This document shows, piece after piece, positions 1,850 to 23,540 of a DNA stretch of 64,000 bases (within the stretch, counting starts at the first letter, position 1; each line of letters opens with the position of its first letter). Location: the NCBI GenBank assembly GCA_021234155.1, contig JAJEKV010000003.1, positions 21,622,386 through 21,686,385 on the forward strand. The letters run 5' to 3'. The notes below the pieces were generated by a model. That model had not been told where the DNA came from, ran no database searches, and worked only from the letters and a program-made list of their open reading frames with translations. Both the position numbers and the translations under genes were made by a program. This DNA comes from Isoetes taiwanensis. Its lineage: Eukaryota > Streptophyta > Lycopodiopsida > Isoetales > Isoetaceae.

Positions 1850-3046
1850 CAGCTAAGGAAAGGGAGGAAGAATACATGGAAAGCTTTTTTCTATTCTAAA
1901 GACTATAGGCTCTCAAAGACCATGAAGAGAGCTACTCAAAGTTAAAGGAATTCCCAATATTGTGGTAGCAATAGATCTGTTTAATACTTTGATACCCTAT
2001 ATGCATACTTCTGGAGATTCCACAATTATGGCACATTTATTCCCATTAAGGAGGATTCTTGCTACCCTTCCAAATCTGTCAATAGCCTCAAGAAAGTTTA
2101 TTAAACTATTATCACCATGCTTTAGAAAGACAAAAATATCAATACTGCATAATGGTAAAAGTGCCATTATCTTTTGGTAGCTCTAAGCATTTAATGCCAT
2201 CTCTACTTTGCAGATGTGTTACCATTCTAGTTACCATTTCAGTAGCAATAATGAATAGATATGGGGCTAAATGACACCCTGCCTAACTCTCCTCCTACAT
2301 GGAAATTGTTTAGAGGGGTACATTTATAATCAATGTTGATGAGGTTGTGATATTGAAACCCAATATCTTCATGTACACAGTTTCTGTAATCCAAGGTGAG
2401 CTATTGATTTCTCAAAAAATTGCCATCTTATTGTGTCATATGCTCTTTTAAAGTCTAGTTTAAGTAAAATACATCCTTGGTCTGAGAGCTTATCCAGTGT
2501 GCAGACCTTTAGTTGCCCCAACATAATTGTCTAAAGTGTTCCTCTGGGGGAGAAAAGCTGATTGGCAGGGACTGATCAGCTTTTGTAGGATTGCCTTTAT
2601 CTTCTTTGTCATAATTTTGGCTAACGCCTTATAACTAGTATTAGTTAAAGATATTGGCCTCCAGTCTCCTATTTCTGAAGGACTACCAATTTTAAGGACT
2701 ACCAGTTTTAGGAATCAGAGTAATATGTCCAATATGGATAGTTGGGTTCAGTGTTTTGGCTTTCCATGCTCCCTGAATAAAAGTTATAAAATCATTATAT
2801 TCCAAAATTCAACATAGAATTCTGGTTAAAACACATCGGGTCTAGGACTCTTCCCATGAGCCATAGCTTTAAGATTGTCTAAAATCTCTTTTTCTTCTAA
2901 AATTTCCTTCCCTTCAATAGTTTGGGCCTTTTTAGGGATTTTCTTAAAGAAGTCTTCTAGCAAACCCTCATCCACCTTATACTTGTCAAACAAGGCATTG
3001 TATTCCCGATGAAAAATATCTTTCATTTCTCCTTGCTTTTCTAGAA
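1850..3046 (-). mobile_element. L1-type LINE, distal part (reverse transcriptase), split by the chromovirus
   Basis: On the minus strand the translation, broken by many stops and shifts, shows the L1 pol motifs in order. GKSPRPDVF (for GKSPGPDGF) comes near 2830, then the DWRPISLTN block near 2660, then a KLDFKRAYDT block near 2450, then a decayed RQG..SP block near 2290. The upstream part of the same L1 (endonuclease) lies at 19160-21140, on the other side of the gypsy element. The pentanucleotide TAGAA at 3042-3046 is repeated at 19155-19159 as the gypsy target-site duplication. The 3' end of the L1 near 1850 is approximate. Confidence 0.8.
3042..3046. repeat. target-site duplication TAGAA (left)
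   Basis: Five bases directly outside the left LTR, matched exactly by 19155-19159 outside the right LTR. This fixes both ends of the chromovirus. Confidence 0.93.
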
Positions 3047-4587
3047 TGTGACGTCCCCTACTCATATACGGTGCACTCGCCGTATACAAACAGGAGTTCA
3101 TCCCCCATACCAGCTCCATGCTGATACAAGGCCCTACACGTACCACTGCAACCTTGACGAGTTCCAGTGGGAAGAATGAAAGGGTCATTTTACCCTGTCT
3201 CCCTCAGGGCCTACCTAGCTGCGGAAGCGTATACATACATGTCAGTACAAATACATCAACATCACATGACCATCACGAAGGATGGTTCACCACATATCTG
3301 CATAGACAAGATCAGTACATCACATATGGAGATCCTACCCGAGGCTCAGACTCAAGAGGGATGACTGACGGCTTGGGCCTCCAGAAGTCGTTGCAGACAG
3401 AATTCATGGCAAATGGATTTGGCTGGCATAAGAACATGGCTTAGGGTAGTCCACTCCATCCGCCCCTCCTGTGCACACTTTGCAGAGTAGGTTGAAAAGT
3501 GTTGGGACTTGACTGTAGCCCGCCGGATGCGTAGCCAGAGGGGCTACTCCTGGGTTGCATCTCCCCAATTCCGATGGGGCAGGTAGGGATTGCTCCCACC
3601 AGAGGTTGGCATGCTGGCTCAAGGTGACTAGAGGGCCACTGCCCGTACTCGACTGAACTCCATGGAAGGTGTCCACCACCCCAAGAGTGCCGAACCCATG
3701 CAAAGCCAGCACGCAGTGGCAGAGCATTAGGTCTAGTGCACTGTAGTCCCCGATAGGCTTTACTACCAGAGGGACGTGGTCATGAGCCAGGACATGCACC
3801 TCCTTGTAAGCCAGTCTGGTCCCTCCACCCACAACCAGGTTTGGTTCTTATACACAGGTCGAATTTAATAGTGCATTAAAGAGGGCTAGCTAGGAGCATC
3901 AAACTACTAGGCTTTTAAGGCCTCTACCCCCCCCTTCCCAATACAATGATTTCACAGAGATCATCATCACATACATATCATAGAAGAACTAAAGAATAAG
4001 ATTTAATCTAAATCACAGAGTTAGGTTCTTTAGTTATGGCTCGATATCTAGAGGTCTAGATGGCTGCTATGGGCAATTCAATAGGCTAAACCTACTTATT
4101 CTATGCCTGGGAGGCGGATTAGACTATTGAATTGGCAAAATACCTGATCTCTGGCTTGCTCCTCCTGCTCTGAATGCGTCCATGCTGCAGATCTGCTTGA
4201 AGATGAAGCTAGAAAGGGAAGCTGATGAGCTAGGCTGCTCAGACAGACTTCGGAGTCAAGATTGGCTCTTGGAGCAAGCAAAACGGAGTCCTAGAAGGCT
4301 GTGGACGAAAATGGAAAGTTAGGGTTCAGATGCCTTATATAAGTTAGGGCTAGGGTTTCCATTAACCCTTGAGCATGTGGGATAAATGGGTGTGGCCCAC
4401 TTGCCTATATTAATTAAGTGGGCTAAAGTGTACACATGAATAAATGTGCACACACTTGCAAGTTGCCCCCTAGGGTGCTACTTGCTTAGCTATCGTACGC
4501 ATTACCGTCAATCGAGATGGCGTAATGCGGATGGCAATCAGAGACAATATATGTCGGGGACCGTGATCTTGTCTTTGGAACGTCACA
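3047..4587 (-). repeat. 3' LTR of the 16.1-kb chromovirus (1541 bp)
   Basis: It is nearly identical to 17775-19154 over most of its length, for example 3090-3900 against 17805-18620. It differs by about 140 bp (around 4173-4305) that is absent from the other LTR. It also differs in its last ~95 bp (4491-4587), where the two LTRs share only a central CGTCAATCGAGATGGCGT block and the extreme end. The open frames inside it have no retroelement homology and are not called as genes. Confidence 0.93.
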
Positions 4588-4600
4588 TTCTCCCCACCTT
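4588..4600 (-). other. polypurine tract
   Basis: Read on the minus strand, the purine-rich AAGGTGGGGAGAA abuts the first base of the 3' LTR. This is the expected place for the plus-strand priming site of an LTR retrotransposon. Confidence 0.75.
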
Positions 4601-5450
4601 GAAATGATGTTGTCCGCAGCATCGTGGGTCTCCCCACCTTGGGATCTTCTTGTCCTGCAACCAACTTGATGCATACAATTTATTACTATTATACTTACAC
4701 AATTATTAGAATTGCTCTAAGGTAATATTTTTAAAACATTACTACGACATTACATTATCCCAATAACTTATCAATTCATAGCTCCATTAAAGTAAGGTAC
4801 TTATTAGCCTCACTTAATACAACATTTAAGTTTATCAAATTCAACAATTTCATATACAATTATCCTTCGAGGTACTCTTCATTCCTTGCAACACATTCCA
4901 ACAAAATTGTGTTGCAAGTCTTCGTAGCTCGACCTCCTTGCCCTCCGGAGCGCTCTATTGGCCTGCAGGTCGACACTACATTAGTACCATTTTAATTATT
5001 AATAGAATTATGGTTATAAGGTAACCACCCATCTAATTAACTAAATGAATGCATGACTAATCTCCCGGCGTAGGAAGAGGATGTTTCTTCCATCGTGGTC
5101 GTGGAGACAGCGCCCTATAATGCCTAAGATGACACTCATGCCTACACCTTTAGTTGCCTTTGGCGTGAAGGATGGCGTCCTCCCCGTAGGCATTGACTAG
5201 AGGTGCTTTCCTATCAATGCATGCCTGAATGGCCTCTTATCTCTCGGGGTCATCTACTTCCGTGAGACGGAAGTAGACTTTTTAATCTACCTTCAAACTA
5301 ATGCAAGCAAAACCGCGGTCATGTCTACAATGACATTATACCACGTCCTAGAGATCACCGCAGTGGTCCCATCATCGATAAATACGTATGCAACCCATAC
5401 CTAGCATAGGCTGCATGCGTAGATTAATCTTAACTACACATGAAATTAAT
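4601..5450. other. chromovirus 3' non-coding region
   Basis: Between the end of pol and the polypurine tract I see no coding frame or known motif. The sequence is AT-rich up to about 5050 and more mixed after that. Confidence 0.5.
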
Positions 5451-6551
5451 CTAAACAAAAATTGACATGCCTGAGCCGATTACTTCGGAGATGACCTTGC
5501 CGTCCCATTGCTCCATGAACTGCGGGTACTGCTCTATCAGGTCCTTCTTAAGTACCCATGTCGCGTCTTCCACTGGAAAGTGTACCCACTTGACCAAATA
5601 TTGGAGAAACTCTGATCTCCTTGTCTTCTTGATCGCCTTATCAAGGATCAAGTCTGGGACTATCTCTAGCTGCTCTTCTATCATTTCCAACAACGTTGGC
5701 GTGTCCAAGACTTCTTCTGGGTTTGGAGTATGCTTCTTCAACAAACTCACGTGGAAGACATTATGAATTTTCAGGTGTGCTGGCAGCTCTAACTTGTAGG
5801 ATTGGTTACTTACTATTCTGCAAGGGCCAGCCCACCTTGGAGCAAGCTTCTTACAATTTCCGATGCGGAGCTTCGTCTGCTTCACTTTGATCTTGAGCCA
5901 GACATTGTCGCCAACCTGGAACTCTCTGACCGTTCGGTGCTTGTCGGCGACGCTCTTTTGTCGACTCCTTGCTGCAAGAAGATATCCTCGGACTTCTTCT
6001 ACCAGCTGCTGCATGTTGGCCAACATTTGCTGCGAAACCTCTACCTTTGACACAGGATTGTGCCAAGTGTCTGGAGTTAGACATTGGTAGCCGTAGTTGA
6101 TCATGAACGGCGACATCTGGGATGATTCCTGCTTGGTGCTATTATGAGCGAACTCAACCAAGTGAATGTATTCTTCCCACTTACTCTGCTTGTTCCATAC
6201 ATAGTTTCTTAGCATATCTTCCAAGATTCTGTTGGTCCGTTCTGTTTGCCCATCCGTCTGAGGATGATAGGCCGTGCTCATGGATAGTTTCGTCTGGATC
6301 GTCGCAAAAAGATCCTGCCAAAAGGCACTCATGAACTTCGGGTCTCTGTCGGAGATGATCTCTCTCGGCATGCCATGGAGCCTGAAGATTTCCTTGGTGA
6401 AGAGAGCCGCTGTATCCAAGGCTGTTCGGTAGTCCTGCAAGGCACAAAGTGTGCCATCTTCGACAACTTGTCGACCACAACCATCAGGACATCTTTTCCT
6501 CTTGCGGTCCTCGGGAGCCCTGTTATGAAGTCCATACTGATGACTTCCCAC
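5451..6551 (-). pseudogene. chromovirus pol, integrase C-terminal half and chromodomain
   Basis: This 366-codon frame continues the integrase from the preceding frame. From about residue 42 it reads on through ISDRDPKF (second catalytic Asp, about residue 70) and the YHPQTDGQTERTNR motif (catalytic Glu, about residue 104). It then enters the integrase C-terminal GPY-like region (FQVGDNVWLK, APRWAGPC) and HNVFHVSLLK. About residues 295-345 form a chromodomain (YLVKWVHFPVEDATWV), which in chromoviruses directs integration to methylated-histone chromatin. The first ~40 residues are out-of-frame translation of the upstream segment. The break from the RT/integrase frame lies near 6430-6445. Confidence 0.92.
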
Positions 6552-8449
6552 TTACCATTTGGCACCGCTAATGGTTCCAATGCTCCTGGAATTCGAAGCT
6601 GCTCTGCGTTCGTCTGCTGACACAACTGACACTCTTTGATGCAGCGAGCTATATGCTTCTTCATCCCTGGCCAATAATAGCTGATGCGCACTTTGAAATA
6701 TGTCTTCATAAATCCTGCGTGGCCAGCTATTGGACTGTTGTGGGTGTCGTGGAGAATCAACTTCCTCATTCGTGATGATTCCGGCATGCACAACTTATTC
6801 TTATGGTACAAAAGGTTACCTTCCTTCTTAAAATTCTTGAAGGTCTCCCTCTCCTTATCTGTTCTTGCCTCCCTGCACAAGCTCGCCCACACTTCCTTGA
6901 AGTCTGCATCTGTCGGCAAGGTTTCTTCGATCTTCTTTCCGAAGTCGCTGGTGAGCGTCGAAATTGCGTTGCAGTGGACTCTTGTTGTCAGAGGATGTCT
7001 TGAAAGCGCATCTGCTACCACATTAAGCTTCCCCGGCTTATAAACTATATCAAAGTCATATTTTTCGAGGAACTCCATCCACCTTCGCTGCCTCAGGTTG
7101 AGATGTGGTTGCGTGAACACGTATTGGAGGCTCTGATGGTCTATGTCCAACTGGAACTTCCTCCCCAACAGGTAGTGCCTCCAAATTCTTAGTGCTCTGA
7201 CAACTGCAAGCAACTCTTGATCATGAGTCGGGTAGCGCGTTTCGGCGTCGTTCATCTTCCGAGAGTCGTAAGCCACTACTCGCTCTTCCTGCATCAGCAC
7301 TGCACCTGTGGCAATCATACTTGCATCCGTCGCCACAAGTTTGTCCTTCTCGGGGTCTGGCAGGGTCAGGACGGGGGCGGTTGTTAAAGCTTCCTTCAAC
7401 ATCTCGAATCCTGCTTGGGCTTTCTTCTGCCAGTGATCTGCCCAATCCTTTACTTTTTCTGCCCTCATCAAATCCGTTAGCGGGGCTGCTATCTTTGCAA
7501 AGTTCTTCACGAACTTCCTGTAATACCCTGCTAGGCCGAGAAAGCTTCTGATCTCGTGGATGTTCTTCGGCGCCGGCCACTGTATGACTGCTTCAATCTT
7601 GGCAGGATCCGTCGAAATCCCTTCCGATGAGATCACATGACCCAGATATTCTACCTTCTCCATTGCGAAGTGGCACTTCGACAACTTAGCATACAACTGG
7701 TGCCTTCTTAGCTTCTCGAGCACTTTCCTTAGGTGTTGTACGTGTTCTTCCAGGGATTTGCTGTACACCAGAATATCATCAAAGAATACTATGACAAAAG
7801 TATCCAAAAACTCCCTGAAGATGTCGTTCATGAGTCTCATGAACGTTACTGGAGTATTTGATAAACCAAATGGCATTACGGTGACGTAATGCCTATATCT
7901 GGTCCTGAATGTTGTTTTGTGGACATCTTCTTCCTTAATCCTGATCTGATGGTACCCCGACCTCAGGTCTATCTTGGAGAAAACTTTTGCGCCTTGGAGC
8001 TGATCCATCAGGTCGTCCGATCTGGGGAATGCATACTTATTCTTAATGGTGTGCTTGTTTAGCTGCCTGTAATCTATGCACACCCTCAAGCTGCCATCCT
8101 TCTTCTTCACAAAAAGGATGGGTGCCCCAAATGGTGAGACGCTAGGTCTAATGAACCCTAGGTCAAGCAACTCCTGCAATTGCTTCTTCAACTCGGTCAG
8201 CTCTTGTGTCGTCATCCTGTACGGAGCTTTGCTCGTCGGCTTCGTACCTGGTTCGAGTGCTATCTCGCACTCAACTCCCCTGTAAGGAGGAAGCTGCTTG
8301 ATCTCGTCTAGGAAGAGATCATGGAACTCCTTTACCAATTTAGCTACCTGCTTTGGTAATTTGCTGAGCACCTTATCTTGCTTTCTTCTGACTCGGGCTC
8401 TTCGATCTGAAGCTTGAAGACATAGGCTACCCGCTCGCTCTTTATGCAC
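6329..8449 (-). pseudogene. chromovirus pol: reverse transcriptase, RNase H, integrase N-terminal part
   Basis: This 706-codon frame contains the RT domain, with [12 protein letters not shown] (catalytic Asp near residue 161), MPFGLSNTP and [10 protein letters not shown] (catalytic Asp pair near 224-225, an FFDD variant of YxDD). RNase H follows with LVATDAS (Asp near 375), the HDQELLAV motif (Glu near 412) and [10 protein letters not shown] (Asp near 480). The integrase has an HHCC zinc region ([17 protein letters not shown] ... CIKECQLC, residues ~567-610) and the first catalytic Asp in [10 protein letters not shown]. After about residue 665 the frame is lost and integrase continues in the 5451-6551 frame, so one indel separates them. 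The 5' end is cut off from protease by the insertion at ~8480-11763. Confidence 0.95.
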
Positions 8450-9042
8450 TTGAGCAGCCGCTTACTAGACATACACTATATGATAGGAACAACTTCTTTA
8501 CCTGCTTTTGAATGCTGAATGCTTCTGGGCATCTCCTTGATAACCAAAACTAGTACATACAGATAGCAAGCTAGTGAAACCATTATGGCCGGGATTAAAA
8601 AACCTCGCCCTTTTGGGTTTTCGAGGAAAAACCCTGACAATAATGGGATCACTAACCGATGCTAGGTCCAAAAACATAATAGATCTTGTACCCTCATGCT
8701 GACTAGTCTTATTGGGTGATAGTACATTACAGCAATGAAGTTGCCAAAGACGAAACATGTTTGAATTGTCTTCTCCATAGATCTTCATCTTGTGCTTCGA
8801 ATCCAAAGCTCTCTTCCAAATAGCCACGCCAAACCCTGCATACACAAAAAAGACCAACCAAAGGCCACCAAGGCCATCCAGCCACCAAGGCTACCAACTA
8901 GGCACCAAGCCTTCCACCAGGCACACCGGCCTCAACCAGGCACAAAAGCCCACCAGGCTCTCAGCCCAAAAACAGGCACTAGGCCTCCAAACCGAATGTT
9001 AGTTTACCAACAAGCTAATCATGCAAGGAAGGGTGGGGGGGT

Positions 9043-9216
9043 GGGCCTGACCGTAGGAAAAGATGAAGGAGATGCAAAGAGGCTGATGAAGAAGGAAATG
9101 GACGTGCAAGAAACTAAATAGGGCTGGGAAACTGCTAACCTAACTAACTCCTAACTACATCGTAGTTCAAGAATTATGTTTTCCTTCTATTCGGTGAAAC
9201 GAAGGAAAACATTATT
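9043..9216. repeat. 174-bp direct repeat, copy 1
   Basis: Almost identical to 11590-11763. Near its end it contains the inverted repeat ATGTTTTCCTTC ... GAAGGAAAACAT with a 13-base loop, so each copy can form a terminal hairpin. Confidence 0.9.
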
Positions 9217-9304
9217 TCTAGAACTACTATGAGCGCACACAGACAAGAATGCTGAAACAGAGGCAGACGGAAGCAGAAGAGTAGAAGTTGTTGATGGACA
9301 AGCC

Positions 9305-9764
9305 CAAAGCCAGATACCATAAAAGGTCACCCACTTCCAAAAATTCGCAAAGGCAATTGTCTCTTAGAGAACAAGAACATAGGAACAAGTGGTATATAAA
9401 AGGGGCAAAATAATTATAGTGAAAGTTAGGTATAAAGCTGAGAGGCACAAAGCTTAGGGTAAAACCATACCGCTTCCCCTCGCACAACAAAGGGACCAAC
9501 TTAACAACAAACAATGTTCGGGTCACAACCCCAAAGCCGGATACCATATAAGGCCACCTACCTTGAAAATTCGCAAAGACAATCGACTCTTAGAGAACAA
9601 AAACATAGGAGCAAGTGATATAGAAAAAAAAAAGGGCAACATATCCATAGTGACAATTGGGCATAAGGTTGAGAGGCACAAAGCTTAAGGTAAAACCATA
9701 CCGCTTCCTCACGGCCCCTCAAAGGAACCAACTTAGCCACAAACAATGTTCAGGTCACAGCCCC
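9305..9764. repeat. tandem duplication, period 228 bp
   Basis: Copy one runs from 9305 to 9532 and copy two from 9533 to about 9764. Each begins AAAGCC.GATACCATA and ends near GGTCACA.CCCC. They are roughly 80-85% similar by eye. The hydrophobic open frames on the minus strand here are by-products of the repeat. Confidence 0.85.
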
Positions 9765-10827
9765 ATACAAAAAGCAACCAACCAACCAGAAGGTTATAAC
9801 TTATAAAAGGCCCTTAACTCACTTGAAATATAAAAAGTCCCATTAAGTTAGACTGGATTGATTTAAGCAATCGTTTAGAAGACATCACTAGAAATATAAT
9901 AAGGACATTTAGCTAAACCGAATTGATCTAAGCAATCATAAAGAAGACATCCTGCCTTATCAAAGAAACCATCTTGACATGTTGCCATACGCCACTATGT
10001 GAATAAGAAATATGAATGAAGTAAGATAAAAATCACAAAGAAAATGTGTGAACATTATCAGATGTAAGGAATATGAACGAAGTAAAATAAGATAACAAAG
10101 AAGAATGTATGAAACATTATTAGATGTATGTTATTAAAAGGGGTTGAAACAAGACAAGATGCAAATTGGGATCCGATAGTGTAAATGGAGGTAACAATAA
10201 AGCGTGATAAAGCGTTAATGAATAGTAAGAGCGAAATAAACTGCCTTACAAACGGAAAGCGAAAATAGCAGAGACAATCAAAGGAAAAACAGAGAAAGAA
10301 ACAGAAGAGGGAAGGACCAAAATAGATATGCCTTTCACGCCCAAAGATCCGCTATACCAAACCCGAAGGCCAGATCCACAACCTTGGCATGCTTGCAACT
10401 AAAATCTGGAGTTCAAGACCATAAAACCGGAATACAGAAACTGCACAATCCTCAACTAGGTTAAACGGCCCCAGGTATGGCAAAAACTGAAGAAACAAGT
10501 CAAAACAGGGGGTTTCCATTTAGCCAACACTCCGGATATGGCTGGGCTGCTTGCCAATGATTCTGAAACCCAAATTGACCACAGCCACAGGCCGAGAACA
10601 TGACAGCTGTTAAGAGCAACCAGTGCAACCAAAGAAGAAACAAGAATTGACAGAGAAAAAAATTATTAATAGGGCCCTGAAAGGACCAACTGTTACAGCA
10701 TCCTTCTTCCCGAAACCAAGATCTTAAACACCAGAAGGAAACTTATTACACCGGAAACTTATTACACCCAGCAAACAACTGAACAAAATAACAGAACAAT
10801 TGAAATGAGCAGACTGAACCCCAGATC
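9765..10827. other. A-rich non-coding stretch inside the insertion
   Basis: No recognisable coding or structural signal. Adenine is enriched on the plus strand. Short direct repeats such as ATGAACGAAGTAAAATAAGAT occur in two variants near 10015 and 10075. Confidence 0.4.
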
Positions 10828-11358
10828 CTAAAGTCCCATTTTAGTGTCGTTCTTCAAATCAAAAAGGGTTAAATCCCCCATCTCGTAGAAATCTGCAACC
10901 CTTGGTCCCTCCCTATCCCTGATGCAAATAATATTCTTTCTGTTAGCAATCAAAGACTTACCTCTATCAATGATGTTCTTGGCTGCAGCGTCCAGGGACT
11001 TATGCAATTGTAAATGACGCTCTAAATCTGCGAAGCAATCCTCCAATTGATTCAAAACCTCAAACTGTTTTATGTTCTCATGAAACTTTAGGAGAGGAGC
11101 TCTCGCCCTCCCGCTCTTCTGCTCGATCTCCTCTTGAAGAGCCGAAATCCTGGCCTCCAAGGCCACAATAATCTCTGCCTTTGCGCCAATCAAATCATCC
11201 AACCTAGCCTGCAACCTGCTCTCCATAAGGTCGTTCAGATTGTTTACCTTAGCTTCCAGTCTTCCCTCCATGTCTCCAAGCCATGCCGGAGTCTACTCAG
11301 AAGAAGCGTCAAGTGCATGCCTCTTCCTAAATTTCAACGAACCAGGTTTTGGGGCCAT
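10828..11358 (-). pseudogene. coiled-coil ORF inside the insertion, broken by one TAG
   Basis: Starting from an ATG at 11358, the frame reads a basic start (MAPKPGSLKFRKRHALD), meets a TAG at 11293-11295, and continues in the same frame to 10828. The second part is 147 codons rich in heptad-like Leu/Ala/Glu (for example VNNLNDLMESRLQARLDDL and ISALQEEIEQKSG), predicting a coiled coil. It then ends in a more mixed region. The shape (short basic N-terminus, then coiled coil) resembles the first ORF or Gag of small retroelements. I see no zinc knuckle or catalytic motif, so function is not assigned. Confidence 0.5.
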
Positions 11359-11589
11359 AGCCAGCAACGTGGATGCACTGAAGAGATAAACCAAACCGAA
11401 AACTAAAAGCCTGATACTTACAAAACTTGAAACCAGGCGACCCAGCAGCAACGGCCTAAAGAACAAATATGAACACAAGACTCCAGAACCCACAGAATAG
11501 CCGAAAGCGGCAAAGGCGGCGGTCGAAAGGAACAAAGGGGATCGTACACAAACTGGACACCCAAACAGAAACACCGGTGGGAAAGTGAG

Positions 11590-11763
11590 GGCCTGACCGT
11601 AGGAAAAGATGAAGGAGATGCAAAGAGGCTGATGAAGAAGGAAATGGACGTGCAAGAAACTAAATAGGGCTGGGAAACTGCTAACCTAACTAACTCCTAA
11701 CTACATCGTAGTTCAAGAATTATGTTTTCCTTCTATTCGGTGAAACGAAGGAAAACATTATTT
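11590..11763. repeat. 174-bp direct repeat, copy 2
   Basis: Partner of 9043-9216, including the same terminal hairpin. It forms the right edge of the insertion: protease coding begins immediately to its right. Confidence 0.9.
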
Positions 11764-12503
11764 TCTATGATTTTGCCGTTGGGCGCCATCAAGGTTACTT
11801 TACGGTTCCCACAGTCGATGATGGCCTTTGCTGGAGCGAGGTACTCCATGCCGATGATCAAATCATACTTTCCGATGTTCATCACTTCTGCTCCCATTTG
11901 GATGTTGATCCCTGGCAAATCGATGTCGAAATTTATCCTCTTGCCTGCCGTGTGTCTCACTGCCCCGCTTGCTAATACCACGGGTCTCGGCTTTGACTTC
12001 AATGTCTTGAGCTTCAACATCTCAACCATTCTCGGAGACGCAAAGTTGTGGGTGCTCCCCGTGTCTATCAGGACTATGAAAGATTTGGCCTTGGCCTTCC
12101 CTACTGTGGAGATTACCTGATACTGATTTTCTGCTTGGTCTGAATCTATGGCAGCAAAAATGTGACACTCACCCTGGATGAAGTCGCGTGCTTCTCCGCC
12201 GTCGTCGTCAGAGGGAGTCTCCCATCCACCCAACTCTGCTAATGCTGCATTCATGACAAAAGGGCAGTTTGCTGTTCTGTGGCCTGGCTGGAAGCACCTG
12301 AAGCAGAGTTGTTTCTCAATGCACTCCTGCCTCTTCTCCTTAGGCATTGCTTGTAAAAAGGATCGCACCGCTTTCGAATAGTTTGACCCTTCTTGCTTAT
12401 CTTTGAAGGATACCTGTTTCTTCTCCTGCTGCTTCCCATAACTGCCACTGTATGGAGCTTTTGCTGGTCCCGGACTAGCTGCCCTAGGGCTATAACTTCC
12501 CAC
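11733..12503 (-). pseudogene. chromovirus Gag zinc knuckle and aspartic protease
   Basis: The 256-codon frame contains a CCHC zinc knuckle (CFRCFQPGHRTANC, Cys67-Cys70-His75-Cys80), the RNA-binding end of Gag. The aspartic protease follows, with its active-site motif VLIDTGSTHNF (Asp147) and later LIIGMEYLAPAKAIIDC. Gag and protease are thus fused in one frame, as is usual for chromoviruses. The last residues are encoded by the neighbouring 174-bp repeat, so the natural protease end and the link to RT are lost. Upstream Gag is in other frames because of indels. Confidence 0.9.
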
Positions 12504-13440
12504 TGCTTTGCCCTTATCCTGATAGTACTGATGTTTCTGCCCGTAGGGCCGGATCCTTGCAGGCTAACTGCTTTCGATTCTGCTTCTGATACTGTTCGAG
12601 GGTTAATTGCTCTTACCAGCTCATCGTTTAATTCCTCGATGTACCCTTCCATTGCCTGGCATAAGTTTCATGAACTCTTCCGTGTATTTCTGCACTGACT
12701 TGTTGCCCTGCTGTAGTCGATAGAATTGCTGCATCATGTGATATTTGTGCTCCCTTGGCACATAGTGGCGCTTGAATGCCTTTGAGAATTTCCGAAACCT
12801 GCAGCTGTCTCGGCTCAGTCCATGTGCTTTGGCGTATCCCTTCCACCAAATGCGAGCTGCGTCCTTGAGGTTGGCTGTTGCCACCCTGCCTTTGTCTTTG
12901 TCCTTCATTCCGTATATATTGCCATATTCTCTCATCTCGTCCAGCCAGGTCTCTGCCTCCATGCCTGACCGACTGTCACCTGAGAACTGTTCGAGCTTCC
13001 TTGCCTTCCATACATTGCTCAGTGCAGAATCTACTTTCTTCTGGTAGTATGAGGTCTTTTATGTCCCTGAGTCTGCCATCTCTATGGTCCTGCACCTATT
13101 CTACCTCTTCCTCGGAGTCGGAGTCCAAATCTGAGCTTGTGTTAGAGGAGTCCGTGCTTGGGGACCTCCTTCTCTTGCTCTTCTTCTTATCCTTTGCCGC
13201 CTTTCGAGGTGGTGCTTGCGGCAATTGGATGTTGTCATCTGGGCCAACTCCTGCTTGTGCTACCAAAAAGGCCTTTATTTCTTGAAGGTTCAATCTCATC
13301 TGCGACATCTCCTCTTCGGGAGTCATGGGACCGAATTCTTCATACAGGTTCCTTGCTGGGTGCTGCCAAGCCGGCGTCTGTTCATCTCTATGGACTCGCC
13401 GCTCTTGTTCAGCTGTTCCTGGACCTCTAGCTGCATACAC
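12504..13440 (-). pseudogene. chromovirus Gag, frameshifted
   Basis: Three successive frames encode Gag. The first (13096-13440) has an acidic/basic, Ser-rich start (KDKKKSKRRRSPSTDSS). The second (about 12621-12962) has the typical retrotransposon Gag core (ARIWWKGYAK, FKRHYVPREHK, YRLQQGNKSVQKYTEEF). The third (about 12540-12652) continues with YIEELNDELVRAINP. I infer at least two indels between them. Gag would form the particle in which reverse transcription happens. A good ATG at the 5' end is not visible, because the first frame starts on a GTG. Confidence 0.85.
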
Positions 13441-13607
13441 AAGTAGATCATAGCCTTACGGTTAGCTTTATTTGTTTTGCATTATATGTGTTTGCTGATA
13501 TAGTTGTGGAAGCAAAATACATCAACAAAACATTTAAAATGCGAAACAAAATGTATTTTTATATATATAATAGCTTAATTACAATGGTTCCGGGATCAAA
13601 AGTCTGA

Positions 13608-15133
13608 CTATTCTTGGAATCGCCGGAAGGATGGGTTGTCCTGAAGGAACTTCTTAACTTGGGCCATTCCTACCGAGCGTCCCAAGTTCCTGAGGATATT
13701 CGTTGGTGTCCCGCTCTGCAAGGCTGTCACCAAGTCTTCTAGTCTGCGGTCCGAAGTGTAGGCCGCGGTCACTGCTAATCTTCCTTGCCGTCGGTAGGGT
13801 ACGGCGAAGTCGAAGATATCAAGTGCCATCGTTCTCTTGACTAGGATGACATGGTCAACTATTGGGATCAGCCGAGCATGCCTACCAAAGCCTGAGAGCG
13901 CGATGAGCATGAACACTCCTTCTTCGCCCCTTGAGCTGAATTTGCGATGTATGACTGCTATCCTCCCGTCCATCAGCAGAGGAAGATAATACCTTAGCGA
14001 TCTATCCCTGCCCGTCGCTGTTGATTCGTCGTCTGCTCGGGCACCGGCTCTATGTCTTCCCGCATATTCATCGACGTCAATCTCTGTGAGTTCTCCGTGG
14101 TCCCTTATTGTTGATGTGATTCTGGTCAGGTTGATCTCGCCCCTTCTCTGAACATAAGTGGGGGGCTGGTGTCGAAGAACTTGGCATCAAAATGTTCATG
14201 GTCTTGCCACGGATCCCCATCCGTTCTTGGATGGCGTAGAATTCTTCTTCGGACGGCAGATCCCGAGCTTCCATCATTTGCCGGATGCTGCTGTACGCCT
14301 GGATATCTGAAGTCGACTCCCCGGTGTAGGCGTCGGCTTCTCTTACATGGATTGGGAAGTCAGAGGCCTCCCGGTCGATGAAGTTATCCAGATCTGGTTG
14401 TTGCCGCAGAAGGTACAGCAACTCATCAAGTCGGTACTCCCTGGCTCTGTATTCGGGGAGGTTCTGGATGTCGCTCAGGAGCAAGTACTCCTGGCAGTTG
14501 ATGATGATAGGGGCTAGGCTTGTGATACCTAGCCTGAGCGGGGGAGCGATCCTGAGGGTCTGCCAGTCCTGTTCGAAAGCCGGTATCTCCTGCTCTGCTA
14601 GTTGCCACTCTTGGTCGGGGTCAGTCTTCGTCATCTGAGTCGAGCGCTTCGTCTTCGGCTCTTCCTTCTTGCTCCACTTGATATTGCAAGAGGAGCTGAC
14701 CCTCTGCTGAAGAGGGGTCTACATCCATGGCAGGGATAGAGGGTTCCCCGATTGGGTTCTGGGCACGGTGAGAAAGAAAGATGGCTAGGGCAGCGGTGTA
14801 GGAGAAATACTTGGCCCTATTAGCTGTCATGACCATGTAATCTGGCAACCTAACAACTTTGTTGTTCAGATATTTGGCAATGTTGGGGACATCACCCAAG
14901 GCTGCTTGGAGGGATTGCTTGGGAACAAAATATCCTGTACAGGGGGGAAGCTGTACTAAGGATGGTCCTACTCTAGCTTGAAACTCAGTCATGACTTCCA
15001 TATAGGATGGAATTGCCTGCAAGGTGGTTTGGATGTCTATCTCCTTCTGGAAGACTTGGAAAATGACATTGATGTCTGCCTCAGCTACATGGGCACTGGC
15101 GCTGTACCATCACTGGAAGTCTGCAGTTGCCAT
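13608..15133 (-). pseudogene. unknown accessory gene 2 of the chromovirus (about 500 aa)
   Basis: The frame opens with ATG at 15133, meets a TGA at 15110-15112 (codon 8) and then stays open to 14621, ending in an acidic stretch (EALDSDDED). The adjoining frame 14634-14077 overlaps by 14 bases and continues with PDQEWQLAEQEIPAFEQDW, and a third frame (13973-13608) ends with NPSFRRFQE. Together these look like one ~500-residue protein broken by one nonsense codon and two frameshifts. I recognise no domain: no envelope-like membrane segments, zinc knuckle or protease motif. It has its own TATA box and paired upstream hairpins like the H3-like gene, so the two appear to be a matched set. Confidence 0.6.
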
Positions 15134-15217
15134 TGATCTTGAGTGACTGGGACTATCAAACAGCTCCTGCTTAAAAGTTGGGAGCAAACCTGTAGGATGC
15201 TAAATAGATATGGGGGC

Positions 15218-15227
15218 CTATTTATAG
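15218..15227 (-). promoter_or_regulatory. TATA box of accessory gene 2
   Basis: The minus strand reads CTATAAATAG, 85 bp upstream of the ATG at 15133. The identical decamer stands 101 bp upstream of the H3-like gene. Confidence 0.65.
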
Positions 15228-15428
15228 AAAAAGGAAAAAACCCTAATTTTTGGATAACTTGGAAAAATCTTGGGGTTGGGCAAATCTCACCTATTTTGAG
15301 GTCAAAATGAGGATTTGAAGGCTATTTTGAGGGTCTGAGCATGACTAAGACTATCTAATGAACCTGCTGCAACAACTTTGAGGTCAATTGGAGGTGGAGG
15401 TGGCATGAAAGAGAAAATGTTGAAAGTA

Positions 15429-15485
15429 ATGGTGTGCGCTGGGAGGCTGACCTAAAATTTAGGTCGAGGTCCTGGCGCATACCAT
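15429..15485. promoter_or_regulatory. hairpin 1 (upstream of accessory gene 2)
   Basis: Imperfect inverted repeat. ATGGTGTGCGC pairs with GCGCATACCAT (one G-T pair), and an inner CTGACCTAAA pairs with TTTAGGTCGAG. It is one of four related hairpins sharing the arm CTGGCGCATACC.TGAG. Confidence 0.8.
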
Positions 15486-15628
15486 GAGCAATTTGCCCCT
15501 AATTGGTCAAGACTTATCTAAACAAGATGAACTAAGGGTTAAAACCTGATGGTCTCACCGAGATATGCAAGATTGACCCCTTACTTGGCCGATTTGGAGG
15601 TGTTTGGGACCACTTTTGGTGTGAAATA

Positions 15629-15688
15629 CTCACGGTGTGCACCTGGGACCTGACAAATTTAGGTCGATGCTCTGGCGCATACCGTGAG
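15629..15688. promoter_or_regulatory. hairpin 2 (upstream of accessory gene 2)
   Basis: CTCACGGTGTGC at the left pairs with GCGCATACCGTGAG at the right, with an inner ACCTGACAAATTTAGGT fold. It lies 200 bp from hairpin 1. Confidence 0.8.
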
Positions 15689-15834
15689 TAACTTCTCACT
15701 TTTTGGCCATATGATGTCCATTTTAACTAAAACAAAAGGCAATTATTGCTAACTGAATCTAATTAACAACATTTATGCCCTTATAATTTACTCAAAACAA
15801 CTTTTTTTATTCACAAAAGTTATTATTTATAAAA

Positions 15835-17080
15835 TTAGCGTTCCCCTTTTATGGAACTGGCCAAGTGCATGTCCTTGGTCATCAGATTACCTTCTTGGTG
15901 TGTATAGTGCACGCCGTTGAGTCTTCAAAATGCTGCACCAGCTTCTGCTCAGCTGCTTCTTGCAAGGCTAGCAGCATCTCGCCTATGACCCTCTTGCTCG
16001 AGTCGAACTCCTGTACTACTTCCTTCACGAGCCTGGCGAACGGTGCATGGGGGATGAGAAGGCCATAGCTTCTCTGAAAATGCCGGATCTCCCGGATTGC
16101 TTGTGACAGTTTCCATCCGGCTTTCCTGGCTTTTGGCTTCTTGGGAGGAGTAGGCTTCTCTGGAGGCAGTTTAAGAGTCTGCTTCTTTGATGGTTGTCCT
16201 CCTTCAACATAGGTGACCTTGTTCGCCTGGTAGTAGGAGTTGTAGGCCTCCCACTTCTTCATATATTCCTTGTGTGCCTTCAACTTCTTCTGGTAGACCC
16301 TGAGATGGTCTACTACGTAAGACTCCCGGGCAGGTCGGGGTGGCTTCTTCGGATCCTTGTCCTTCTCCCATGTTGGGTAGGGTGGGGGCGTCTGTACCTG
16401 CTGATCCCTGTCCGTCCGATCCTCGTCTATTGGCTTGGAGGAGCTCCCACCTTCTCGATGAGGATTATAATCTTCGTCATCTGAGTCGTCCGAGGATGGG
16501 GGTGGTCGGGCGGCCGTTCGTTGATGACGATCTTTACATTTGGGGTCTTCTTCATCTTCCTCTTGTGCTCTTCCTTCTCCTTGCCCTTGAGTTTCTTCTT
16601 TGCTTCTGCCTCCTTTGCCTCCTTTTCTTCTCTTTTCCTCTTCTTCTCGGCCTTTCGCTTCTCGCGGCGTCGTGCCTTCGCCTCGTGCATTTTGATCCAG
16701 ACCTCGAGCTCTTCTTCTAAGGTCGGCTCGGAAGTGGGGTCCCTCTGCTCCTCCTGTTCCTTGGCCGCCTGCTCCCGTTCTGCCCTTTCTTGTTTTTCCT
16801 TTTCCATTTGCTCGAACACTCTTTGAATTTCATCATCCTCCGATCCAATGTCTGCTTCTTCGTCCACCTGCTGGTCGATGATGTCGGTCAGCTTTTCTTG
16901 TGATCCTTGCTCGGATCCCTCCTCCTGCAGCTCCTCTGAAGTGCTCTCCTCGCCTGATGAAGGTTGGTCTCCTCTTGCGAGAAGTTGCTCCCGAAGTAGC
17001 TGTTGTATGCGCCTCTTATCTTGGGCGCTGGGCGTTTCACCTGGTCAATACTTTCGGGCAGTCTGTTTGGTGCGCGCCAT
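15835..17080 (-). pseudogene. histone H3-like accessory gene of the chromovirus
   Basis: The ATG at 17080 is followed by ARTKQTARK, the exact start of histone H3 (K4 and K9 kept, S10 replaced by Tyr), then TGA at codon 12. The same frame stays open through an acidic/charged linker (EEADIGSEDDE, then Lys/Glu-rich repeats) to 16427. A frame change near 16500 leads into the frame that carries the H3 fold (about 16130-15835): AIREIRHFQRS, PFARLVKEVVQEF, LLALQEAAE, VQHFEDSTACTIHTKKV. A one-base loss at about 15885 moves the end, TKDMHLASSIKGER-stop, to the next frame, exactly where H3 ends in GER(A/S). The L1 loop is as long as in canonical H3. I infer one ~415-codon gene with a TATA box and two hairpins upstream. 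Homology is very strong. Function is inferred. Confidence 0.9.
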
Positions 17081-17180
17081 GTCTTACTTCACGTCAATCG
17101 GAGCTCTGGTGCCCAAAAATTGCCTCAAAATGCGGAGCTAACTTATAAACAGGAAGTCTGCAAATGAGAGGGGTTTGGAT

Positions 17181-17190
17181 CTATTTATAG
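17181..17190 (-). promoter_or_regulatory. TATA box of the H3-like gene
   Basis: CTATAAATAG on the minus strand, 101 bp upstream of the ATG at 17080. It matches plant TATA elements and equals the decamer in front of accessory gene 2. Confidence 0.65.
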
Positions 17191-17294
17191 TTTGGGCAAA
17201 TTTTAGGTCAAATTCTAAGTTACTCATTTTCATGTGTCAAAGCACCTATTAACCTAAAACATATACTTACTTCAGAGTTTTCTAAGCAATTTTA

Positions 17295-17357
17295 CTCATG
17301 GTGTGCGCTAGAGGGCTGATCTAATATTTAGATCAAGGCTCTGGCGCATACCGTGAG
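17295..17357. promoter_or_regulatory. hairpin 3 (upstream of the H3-like gene)
   Basis: CTCATGGTGTGCGC pairs with GCGCATACCGTGAG, with an inner CTGATCTAAT/ATTTAGATCA stem. Same family as hairpins 1, 2 and 4. Confidence 0.8.
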
Positions 17358-17506
17358 CTCTTTTGCATTTTTGACTAAATTATATGATTTCTAGGCATAT
17401 TCCTGGGGGTGTGATATACAATTCTAACTAAACTTTACCTTAAATTTTGATTTAGCATATTATATTGTTCAAATTCTTCAAGTTTCAAGGTGATTATGGC
17501 CAGTTA

Positions 17507-17568
17507 CTCATGATGGCGCCTGGGGCTCAATCTAAAATTTAGGTTGATGCTCTGGCGCATACCGTGAG
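17507..17568. promoter_or_regulatory. hairpin 4 (upstream of the H3-like gene)
   Basis: Fourth member: CTCATGATGGCGCC at the left and CTGGCGCATACCGTGAG at the right around an inner CTAAAATTTAGG palindrome. It lies 212 bp from hairpin 3. Its left arm has diverged most. Confidence 0.75.
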
Positions 17569-17761
17569 CAAATTCCATGCTTAGTGAAATTTTAGTTCAA
17601 CTTTTTAGTTTGGTTTTCAATTCTTCTAAGTGTTACTAGCTTAGCATAACTACAAAAAAATGAGAAAAAATTTTCCCACTTTTTTCGAGGTTTGAGAATT
17701 CTACTAAGTTAGTACTACTGGGAGCATGGCCAGTGCTTTGCTCTTGGTCTCCAAGAACATT

Positions 17762-17773
17762 GCTCTGATACCA
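17762..17773 (-). other. primer-binding site, initiator tRNA-Met
   Basis: The minus strand reads TGGTATCAGAGC one base inside the 5' LTR. This is the classic plant retrotransposon site complementary to the 3' end of initiator methionine tRNA, where minus-strand DNA synthesis starts. Confidence 0.95.
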
Positions 17774-17774
17774 C

Positions 17775-19154
17775 TGTGACATCCCCTTCACCGTATACAA
17801 ATAGTCATCCCCCATACCAGCTCCATGCTGATACAAGGCCCTCCACGTATCACTGCAATCTTGACGAGTTCCAGTGGAAGAATGAAGGGGTCATTTTACC
17901 CTGTCTTTCTCAGGGCCTACCTAGCTGCGGAAGCATATACATACATGTCAGTACAAATACATCAACATCACATGACCATCACGAAGGATGGTTCACCACA
18001 TATCTGCATAGACAAGATCAGTACATCACATATGGAGATCCTACCCGAGGCTCAGACTCAAGAGGGATGACTGACGGCTTGGGCCTCCAGAAGTCGTTGC
18101 AGACAGAATTCATGGCAAATGGATTTGGCTGGCATAAGAACATGGCTTAGGGTAGTCCACTCCATCCGCCCCTCCTGTGCACACTTTGCAGAGTAGGTTG
18201 AAAAGTGTTGGGACTTGACTGTAGCCCGCCGGATGCGTAGCCAGAGGGGCTACTCCTGGGTTGCATCTCCCCACTTCCAATGGGGCAGGTAGGGATTGCT
18301 CCCACCAGAGGTTGGCATGCTGGCTCAAGGTGACTAGAGGGCCACTGCCCGTACTCGACTGAACTCCATGGAAGGTGTCCACCACCCCAAGAGTGTCGAA
18401 CCCATGCAAAGCCCGCACGCAGTGGCAGAGCATTAGGTCTAGTGCACTGTAGTCCCCGATAGGCTTTACTACCAGAGGGACGTGGTCATGAGCCAGGACA
18501 TGCACCTCCTTGTAAGCTAGTCTGGTCCCTCCACCCACAACCAGGTTTGGTTCTTGTACACAGACCGAATTTAATAGTCCATTAAAGAGGGCTAGCTAGG
18601 AGCATCAAATTACTAGGCTTTTAAGGCCTCTACCCCCCCTTCCCAATACAATGATTCCACAGAGATCATCATCACATACATATCATAGAAGAACTAAAGA
18701 ATAAGATTTAATCTAAATCACAGAGTTAGGTTCTTTAGTTATGGCTCGATATCTAGAGGCTAGATGGCTGCTATGGGCAATTCAATAGGCTAAGCCTACT
18801 TACTCTATGCCTGGGAGGTGGATTAGACTATTGAATTGGCAAAATACTTGATCCCTGGCTTGCTCCTCCTGCTCGAAAATAGAAAGTTAGGGTTCAGATG
18901 CCTTATATAAGTTAGGGCTAGGGTTTACATTAACCCTTGAGCATGTGGGATAAATGGGTGTGGCCCACTTGCCTATATTAATTAAGTGGGCTAAAGTGTA
19001 CACATGAATAAATGTGCACACACTTGCAAGTTGCCCCCTAGGGTGCTACTTGCTTAGCTACACGTCGGCGTACACGTCAATCGAGATGGCGTGTACGCAT
19101 GACGATGCAGTACAGTATATGTCCTGGGACCATATACTGTGCTGGAACGTCACA
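17775..19154 (-). repeat. 5' LTR of the 16.1-kb chromovirus (1380 bp)
   Basis: TGTGAC ... GTCACA ends, adjacent PBS on one side and TSD TAGAA (19155-19159) on the other. It lacks ~140 bp found in the 3' LTR and has a different last ~90 bp (19062-19154). Confidence 0.94.
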
Positions 19155-19159
19155 TAGAA
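19155..19159. repeat. target-site duplication TAGAA (right)
   Basis: Exact match to 3042-3046. The L1 sequence resumes here. Confidence 0.93.
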
Positions 19160-22229: not shown

Positions 22230-23540
22230 ATTGTCTTTGCAAATGAATGTTTTGGATTAATCAAGAATTGATGTTCTTCCTTATGTATTGGGGGCAGTGG
22301 TTGGGACCCCATTCTGCCACATCAATAGGGACTAGTGGTAGGAGGGAGTGGCTATCTGGCCGTGGTAGAATGAGGAACCAGGTGTTGTTCTTCCATAATA
22401 TAGAAGCTGGAGATAGAATTTCATGCATAAAGAAGGAGCTAAAGAACTCTATTATACATCCTTCGATGGTCTTATTATAGATTTAACAAGCTACAAATTT
22501 GAAAACATGAAAAGTATTTCAGAAGAGGGATAAGTATGGCATTTCAATAGTAGAGAATTTCATATTATATTCAATGTTCTTCCCTTTATGTATTGGGGAC
22601 GGTGGTGGCCATGGTAGAATGAGGAACCAAGTGTTGTTCTCCCATAATATAGAAGTTGGAGATCGATTTTCGTGCATAGGTAAGGAGCTAAAGAAGTCTA
22701 GTGTACATGCATCGAATGGCTTTATTACAGTAGAGAATTTCGTATTATATTGAATGTTCTTCCCTTTATGCATTGGGGACGGTTGTTGGGACCACATTCT
22801 ACCACATCAAGTGAGACTAGTGGTAGCAGGGATTGTGTACCCGACCGTGGTAGAATGAGGAACCAAGTGTTGTTCTCCCATAATATAGAAGTTGGGGATC
22901 GATTTCCAGGCATATCTAAGGAGCTAAAGAAGTCTGGTATACATCCATCGAATGACATTATTACAGATTCAACAAGCTACAAATTTGAAAACATGAAAAA
23001 TATTTCAGAAGAAGGATAAGTATGATATTCCAACAGTAGAGTATTCTGTATTACATTGAGTGTTCTTCGCTTTATGTATTGGGGGCGGTGGTTGGGACCC
23101 CATTTTGCCACATCGAGAGGAACCAGTGGTAACAGGGGCTGGGTATCCAGCCGTGGAGGAATGGAGAACCAGATGTTGTTTTCCCATAATATAGAAGTCA
23201 GGGATCAATTTTCATGTATATATAAGGAGCTAAAGAAATCTGGTACACATCCATCGAATGACCTTATTACAGATTCAGCAAGCTAAAAATTTGAAAACAT
23301 GAAAAATATTTAAGAAGAGGGATAAGTATGGCATTCCAATAGTAGAGAAATCCATATATATATTGAACGTTCTTCCCTTTATGTATTGGAGGCGATGGTT
23401 GGGACCCCAATCTGCTATATGAGAGTGACTAGTGGCAGTAGGGAGTGTGTATTCTGTTGTGGTATAATGAGGAACCAGGTGGTGTTCTCCCATAGTTTGT
23501 ACACATCTATTGAATGGCCTTATTATAGACTAGTAAATTG
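22230..23540. repeat. satellite-like tandem array, about 306-bp unit, 5 copies
   Basis: The anchor GGGG.CGGTGGTTGGGACC recurs near 22289, 22595, 22776, 23081 and 23388, giving spacings of about 306, 181, 305 and 307 bp. The second copy lacks about 120 bp. Each unit also holds GAATGAGGAACCA.GTGTTGTTC and AAGGAGCTAAAGAA. Copies differ by 10-20%. The open frames on both strands mirror the repeat and are not genes. Confidence 0.9.

Follow-up and report, generated by a model that had tools for sequence, protein, structure and literature searches.

A Ty3/gypsy chromodomain retrotransposon lineage of Isoetes taiwanensis carries a conserved gene that ends in a histone H3 fold

Described mobile elements with captured genes

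The nearest precedent that we found for a mobile element with a histone gene is provided by fungal hAT DNA transposons, for which H3-like (H3L) genes are described in the available parts of accounts on Pyrenophora (PMC3538342) and Pseudocercospora (PMC6710886). These systems are like the family considered here in that a transposon family with an H3-like gene has been amplified to hundreds of copies, but they are cut-and-paste DNA transposons in which the H3 gene lies beside the transposase, not LTR elements. In P. fijiensis 90% of the H3L copies are given as truncated and RIP-damaged (PMC6710886, in the part available), and no fusion of H3L to element-specific domains is described in the available parts of PMC3538342 and PMC6710886. 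A captured H3 of the fungal type, in a TIR element with hAT transposase, was considered for the present locus and rejected, because the window (the whole stretch of DNA that was analysed, 64,000 nt of Isoetes taiwanensis, GCA_021234155.1, contig JAJEKV010000003.1, positions 21,622,386 to 21,686,385 of the forward strand) has LTRs and pol instead.

It is also noted that acquired domains in LTR elements are already known from what is available of PMC7264820 and PMC9289625. According to the available part of PMC9289625, orchid Ty3/Gypsy elements carry an ALKBH5-like m6A demethylase; like the window element they are LTR elements of a Gypsy lineage in which an extra ORF encodes a domain taken from the host, but domain and activity are different and the acquisition is recent and confined to one genus, and a histone is not named as an extra domain in that part of the account. 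A review of plant LTR retrotransposons with additional ORFs describes the extra ORF as lying outside gag-pol, as is the case here, and the word histone is absent from its available part (PMC7264820). The chromoviruses of non-seed plants (Tcn1/Galahad etc.) have a chromodomain Ty3/gypsy integrase and occur in lycophytes, again as here, with no histone ORF described in the part of the account available (PMC3350952). In the main text of the genome papers of I. taiwanensis (PMC8566536) and I. sinensis, as far as available, the word histone is likewise absent. In the literature searched, outside which many subscription papers and preprints lie, we found no LTR retrotransposon with a histone; the first-pass annotation, too, knew of no described chromovirus with a histone gene, and within that literature the histone fusion stands alone as a lineage-wide gene of an LTR element.

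The window element and its H3 gene

The window contains a Ty3/gypsy chromodomain LTR element of which both ends are present and the coding part is damaged. Its features, in window coordinates, are as follows.

3047..19154, minus strand: whole LTR retrotransposon with a nested insertion (LTR pair by self-BLAST, ends read)
3042-3046 and 19155-19159: 5-bp target duplications TTCTA flanking the element
17775..19154, minus strand: 5' LTR, about 1.38 kb, with TG..CA ends
17761..17773, minus strand: PBS-like TGGTATCAGAGCA, read from the sequence
17502-17575 and 17291-17364, minus strand: long hairpins before the H3 ORF, in the leader
17048..17080, minus strand: start codon and tail M-ARTKQTARK-Y; in the window copy an in-frame stop comes next
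16101..17047, minus strand: charged/coiled-coil body of ~300 residues in place of H3 residues 10-35, frame-shifted here
15835..16100, minus strand: H3 fold with alphaN, alpha1, loop 1, alpha2, loop 2 and alpha3 (PF00125, PDB and tblastn with host H3)
15622-15695 and 15422-15495, minus strand: long hairpins after the H3 ORF
13608..15109, minus strand: ORF2, in three frames here, between the H3 ORF and gag
12621..13455, minus strand: gag (Pfam PF03732 capsid, 6.3e-14)
11733..12563, minus strand: zinc knuckle and aspartyl protease (Pfam RVP_2, 4.4e-12)
6329..8461, minus strand: reverse transcriptase, RNase H and start of integrase (Pfam RVT_1, 1.3e-36)
5451..6551, minus strand: C-terminal part of integrase with chromodomain (Pfam PF00385, 6.3e-8)
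3047-4587, minus strand: 3' LTR, self-BLAST partner of the 5' LTR

The two LTRs are 97.0% identical over 1098 columns and 90.3% over 289 columns by self-BLAST, and a purine tract precedes the 3' LTR; the TGGTATCAGAGCA site we take to be a PBS of the initiator-Met-tRNA type. With the TG..CA LTRs, the target duplication, the PBS, the purine tract, the gag-PR-RT-RH-IN order and the chromodomain, the features of a Ty3/gypsy chromodomain LTR element are all present, and on the minus strand the genes follow one another as H3 ORF, ORF2, gag, protease, RT-RNase H and integrase with chromodomain. The location proposed in the first-pass annotation, between the PBS and gag of a bounded chromovirus and in its orientation, thus holds with the addition that ORF2 also lies between the H3 ORF and gag. 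ORF2, which forms a single frame of 490 aa in another element copy (L051:6036-7505), is conserved within the window type and matched no family in the Pfam search; it matches the ORF2 of group D (see below) with a phmmer value of 2.7e-8 in a set of ten sequences. Since the two are related, the common ancestor probably already had an ORF2.

Some further observations on the window are given here. A nested insertion at 9043-11767, between protease and RT, has direct repeats of 175 bp at 9043 and 11589 that are 99.4% identical, with a gag-like coiled-coil frame inside, and at 22242-23494 there is an array of ~306-bp direct repeats that are 60-90% alike. The four long stable hairpins, two on each side of the H3 ORF, recur in other element copies; in 89 distinct hairpins, kept for stability, the 9-pair core shows pairing in 752 of 799 cells, and three of its pairs have double-sided changes.

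The H3 ORF extends from 17080 to 15835 on the minus strand, in the sense of the element and between PBS and gag. The H3 fold in it is confirmed and is part of something larger than was first noted: a gene had been proposed at 15835..16130, where the fold does lie and where all the quoted segments are found on the minus-strand translation, while the gene itself is far longer, starting at 17080 with an H3 tail and containing an inserted body that had been missed. The frame 16829-15882 matches the Pfam Histone family PF00125 at 3.9e-16 with 59.9 bits against a cut-off of 26.4, the profile search proposed at the outset, and PDB H3.3/H3 chains at 2e-16, so that the match to H3 is not due to chance. 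Loop 1 has the length of canonical H3, and the equivalents of C110, H113 and D123 are kept, as had been stated, together with that of R116. The one-base slip is also seen: directly behind the loop-2 segment, near where the fold ends, the frame slips and then meets a stop. With this slip, the other frame shifts and the stop directly after the tail, the window copy is broken, and uninterrupted copies are found elsewhere in the genome.

One such copy (L025) encodes 415 residues, comprising the tail, a charged body of ~300 residues, KKP and the fold up to the C-terminal end, with the KKP beside the fold aligning with K36-K37-P38 of H3. As M-ARTKQTARK has exactly the first nine residues of H3 and the C-terminal part is an H3 fold, the window-type protein reads, by alignment, as an H3 with residues 10-35 replaced, that is, H3 residues 1-9, ~300 inserted residues and H3 from about K36 on. 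By the same alignment numbering, the replacement means that K14, K18, K23 and K27 are gone. Complete window-type folds are 47-57% identical to host H3 over ~90 residues. Among 45 such folds, R83 and R116 are kept in 45, C110 and H113 in 44, T118 in 43, and D123 and L126 in 41, and R129 is changed to H, Y or S in nearly all, R63 to P and R128 mostly to S; the latter three changes may alter tetramers or nucleosomes, or keep them from forming at all. Structure prediction, which had been suggested as a check, gave a poor AF2 model of the window-type protein (pLDDT 54.8, pTM 0.20, the body mostly as low-confidence helices), the models of the window type and of group C each resting on 10-11 sequences, and the identity of the fold therefore rests on sequence.

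Copies, related groups and selective constraint in the genome

In the genome (1,658,258,908 bases in 1,110 contigs), a query of 315 residues gave at least 128 matching stretches, with 126 scored of 22,331 first-look candidates, and most copies in this first match list carry stops or frame shifts. The loci L001-L050 comprise the 30 best matches and 20 chosen for long open frames. The H3 tail is present with at most 3 substitutions in 45 of these 50, and an uninterrupted frame runs from tail to fold in 12, reaching the end of the fold in 10, one of them with a changed start codon.

The position in the element recurs as well. The first-pass annotation had proposed a search of plant genomes for full-length copies with the ORF between LTR and gag. 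In the same genome, L051/L052 and L053/L054 repeat the order of the window, from a leader through an H3 ORF (~430 residues), ORF2 and gag to pol, with H3 at the same place in L051 and L053. At 12 or more of the 30 best gag places, counted by eye, an H3 place lies ~2-4 kb upstream on the same strand. It had also been considered that copies of the family without the ORF would make it a one-off host-gene insertion; in the 901 bases upstream of five further long-frame gag copies, for which no such H3 place was listed, the fold was found in four, with none in those of the fifth (L097). A second, partly overlapping copy in L054 (reverse strand, 3495-9900) has the leader joined straight to gag, without H3 ORF and ORF2, and with up to 3 mismatches allowed this H3-less junction occurs at only 2 places genome-wide, which share a contig, a count that covers junctions of the L054 type, with H3-less elements of other structure lying outside it.

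The M-ARTKQTAR codon pattern has 904 + 984 = 1,888 exact places genome-wide, host H3 genes included, and its reversed control has 0. The window-type tail is ARTKQTAR followed by K or by V/I, with lysine at position 9 in 1,051 of the 1,888 matches (again with host H3 genes included). Among 16 tail places that were read, six have by reading a recognisable H3 fold within ~1.5 kb, and L086 is one uninterrupted protein of 393 residues with an H3 tail. At L095 (41-1045, plus strand) and L089 the body that follows the exact H3 tail is unrelated; the ~1.5 kb read showed no H3 fold, and no Pfam family scored above cut-off.

A second search, with the Pfam Histone profile, scored the best 150 of 8,704 first-look candidates, all of which passed the cut-off, ~15 being ordinary host H3 at 164-165 bits. 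Reading 20 of these places gave 5 ordinary H3, 13 proteins of 411-459 residues and 2 fragments of such proteins. The 13 proteins have an N-terminal part without an assigned family and an H3 fold at the C-terminal end, and they fall into three groups, B with five members, C with seven and D with one. LTR pairs of ~1.6 kb, 93.8% and 92.0% identical, flank the one B copy and the one C copy whose surroundings were read; in both the H3 ORF adjoins the 5' LTR and is followed by ORF2-like frames, gag and RT, and in group D ORF2-like frames, gag and protease lie on the downstream side, the side read. The RT of the window element is 77.6% identical to that of C and 71% to that of B, and the RTs of B and C are 88% identical. 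Groups B-D are without the ARTKQTAR tail, and R stands at their K36 place; R128 and R129 are present in all 15 folds compared and R63 in 14 of them. Their N-termini begin with METPKQ (B), MPRFKLT (C) and MANTKSA (D), each with lysine at the K4 place, which is at most a hint that they could be degraded H3 tails. In the model of group C the N-terminal part (~residues 7-235) is predicted well and the remainder poorly (mean pLDDT of the model 60.5), with no clear match in PDB. All these proteins are thus like canonical H3 and CENH3 in the histone fold, having either the canonical tail (window type) or a fold 82-90% identical to host H3 (groups B-D), but they differ in the 300-residue insert or the orphan N-terminal domain and in being encoded by mobile elements.

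Comparison of the element copies shows purifying selection on both the fold and the tail. Among the window-type folds (38 found, 24 of equal length, 250 pairs) the medians are dN 0.065, dS 1.0 and omega 0.063, by simple pairwise estimates as for all omega values here; the pooled omega is 0.070 in frame and rises to 1.32 and 3.07 when the other two frames are read, and the differences by codon position are 0.105, 0.066 and 0.364. In the 10 uninterrupted copies, selected because their frames are open, the nine tail codons have an omega of 0.109, the body one of 0.222 and the fold one of 0.092, and in the other groups the fold has 0.023 (B), 0.032 (C) and 0.053 (B, C and D together). The many copies, the selection in frame and the genome-wide tail matches with a control of 0 mean that the H3 ORF is an element gene, not a one-off host insertion. 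A Ty3/gypsy chromodomain lineage thus carries a conserved gene upstream of gag that ends in an H3 fold.

Origin and possible role of the element H3

In an unrooted tree of 46 folds, with CENH3 from flowering plants only, there are three clades: the window type (19 rows, 100/99), CENH3 (98/94) and canonical H3 with groups B-D (98/96), in the last of which B, C and D come together (87/80) beside canonical H3. Between the window type and C the fold divergence exceeds the RT divergence, which speaks against one simple clock for the two; the history may be a single capture, followed by rapid change of the window type, or two captures. That the window-type fold derives from CENH3 and not from canonical H3, and acts at centromeres, could be suggested by features common with the plant CENH3 compared (LIP.APF, R.T.E.LLALQEAAE, TLM.KD), but we consider it quite improbable. 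Loop 1 of the window fold has the canonical length, where a longer one would be expected of CENH3; the tail, too, is that of canonical H3 and not CENH3-like; and with three separate clades no CENH3 affinity is shown, for which reasons of clade and loop a CENH3 identity of the fold was rejected.

The element H3 probably exploits or undermines the way in which the cell packages its chromosomes. In the form that we favour, to which we give a little less than an even chance, a selected element H3 pairs with host H4, enters chromatin, and resists silencing and/or guides integration. The element protein would pair with host H4, as the kept H4-facing and H3-H3' residues suggest, and would become part of nucleosomes, or of a complex resembling H3-H4, on the chromatin of the element and of its targets. 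It would offer there a tail with K4 and K36 but without K14, K18, K23 and K27, and, in roughly every second tail match, without K9 as well. Silencing marks could then not be written on the element tail (no K27 and often no K9 marks), while K4 and K36 marks would be possible and K4 readers, possibly including the chromodomain of the element's own integrase, could still dock, the outcome being resistance to silencing and/or guided integration. A mechanism based on this tail cannot be common to all groups, because groups B-D have no ARTKQTAR tail and R at K36. More tentatively, and with some doubt, we propose that the whole LTR clade makes its own H3 variants as standard equipment, with the fold, in some with the tail, fused to element-specific domains, and that element-made nucleosomes with editable tails evade silencing or steer integration. 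If this is true, the element encodes part of its own chromatin state.

The same observations bear on other roles. The protein might act outside nucleosomes as a histone mimic or sponge that titrates readers and writers of the H3 tail, H4 or chaperones, weakening silencing in trans. The tail with its free-A1-type start is the best-kept part outside the fold, two of the 16 tail places (L089, L095) join it to an unrelated body, the large insert separates it from the fold, and R129, R128 and R63 are changed, all of which would suit such a role; yet the fold is under stronger constraint than tail or body, the DNA-contact residues R83, R116 and T118, of which a pure decoy needs none, are kept, and groups B-D are without such a tail, and we regard this role as unlikely. 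Alternatively, the basic H3-like protein might with host H4 condense the element nucleic acid in the particle, or tie the pre-integration complex to chromatin. This is consistent with the H3 ORF lying before gag in every element examined whole, with the long basic and coiled-coil stretches and with the chromodomain of the integrase, but it leaves the exact ARTKQTAR tail unexplained, and gag already has a zinc knuckle; we regard a role in packaging or nuclear entry as likewise unlikely. As many transduced genes are copied along without use and gene capture by transposons is common, the H3 gene might also be a mere passenger that goes back to a single capture of a host H3 mRNA; the stops or frame shifts in most copies of the first list would agree with this. 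The fungal hAT copies, too, are mostly truncated (PMC6710886, in the part available). This reading is nonetheless highly improbable in view of omega values of 0.02-0.09 at a synonymous divergence near 1 with a frame control, the same H3 place in diverged groups and uninterrupted copies in 10 of 50 loci; gene conversion with host H3 is an unlikely source of the low omega, given an identity of only about 50% between the two.

Few proteins of the cell are as constrained as histones, and the silencing of transposons works through histone marks. In a retrotransposon lineage with its own selected H3, nature has set up an experiment: a parasite alters the substrate on which its silencing acts. The lineage also supplies a ready set of H3 variants, with the tail kept and the fold drifting or with the fold kept and the tail replaced, from which one may learn what parts of H3 are important, and counts of H3 genes in such genomes include element genes.
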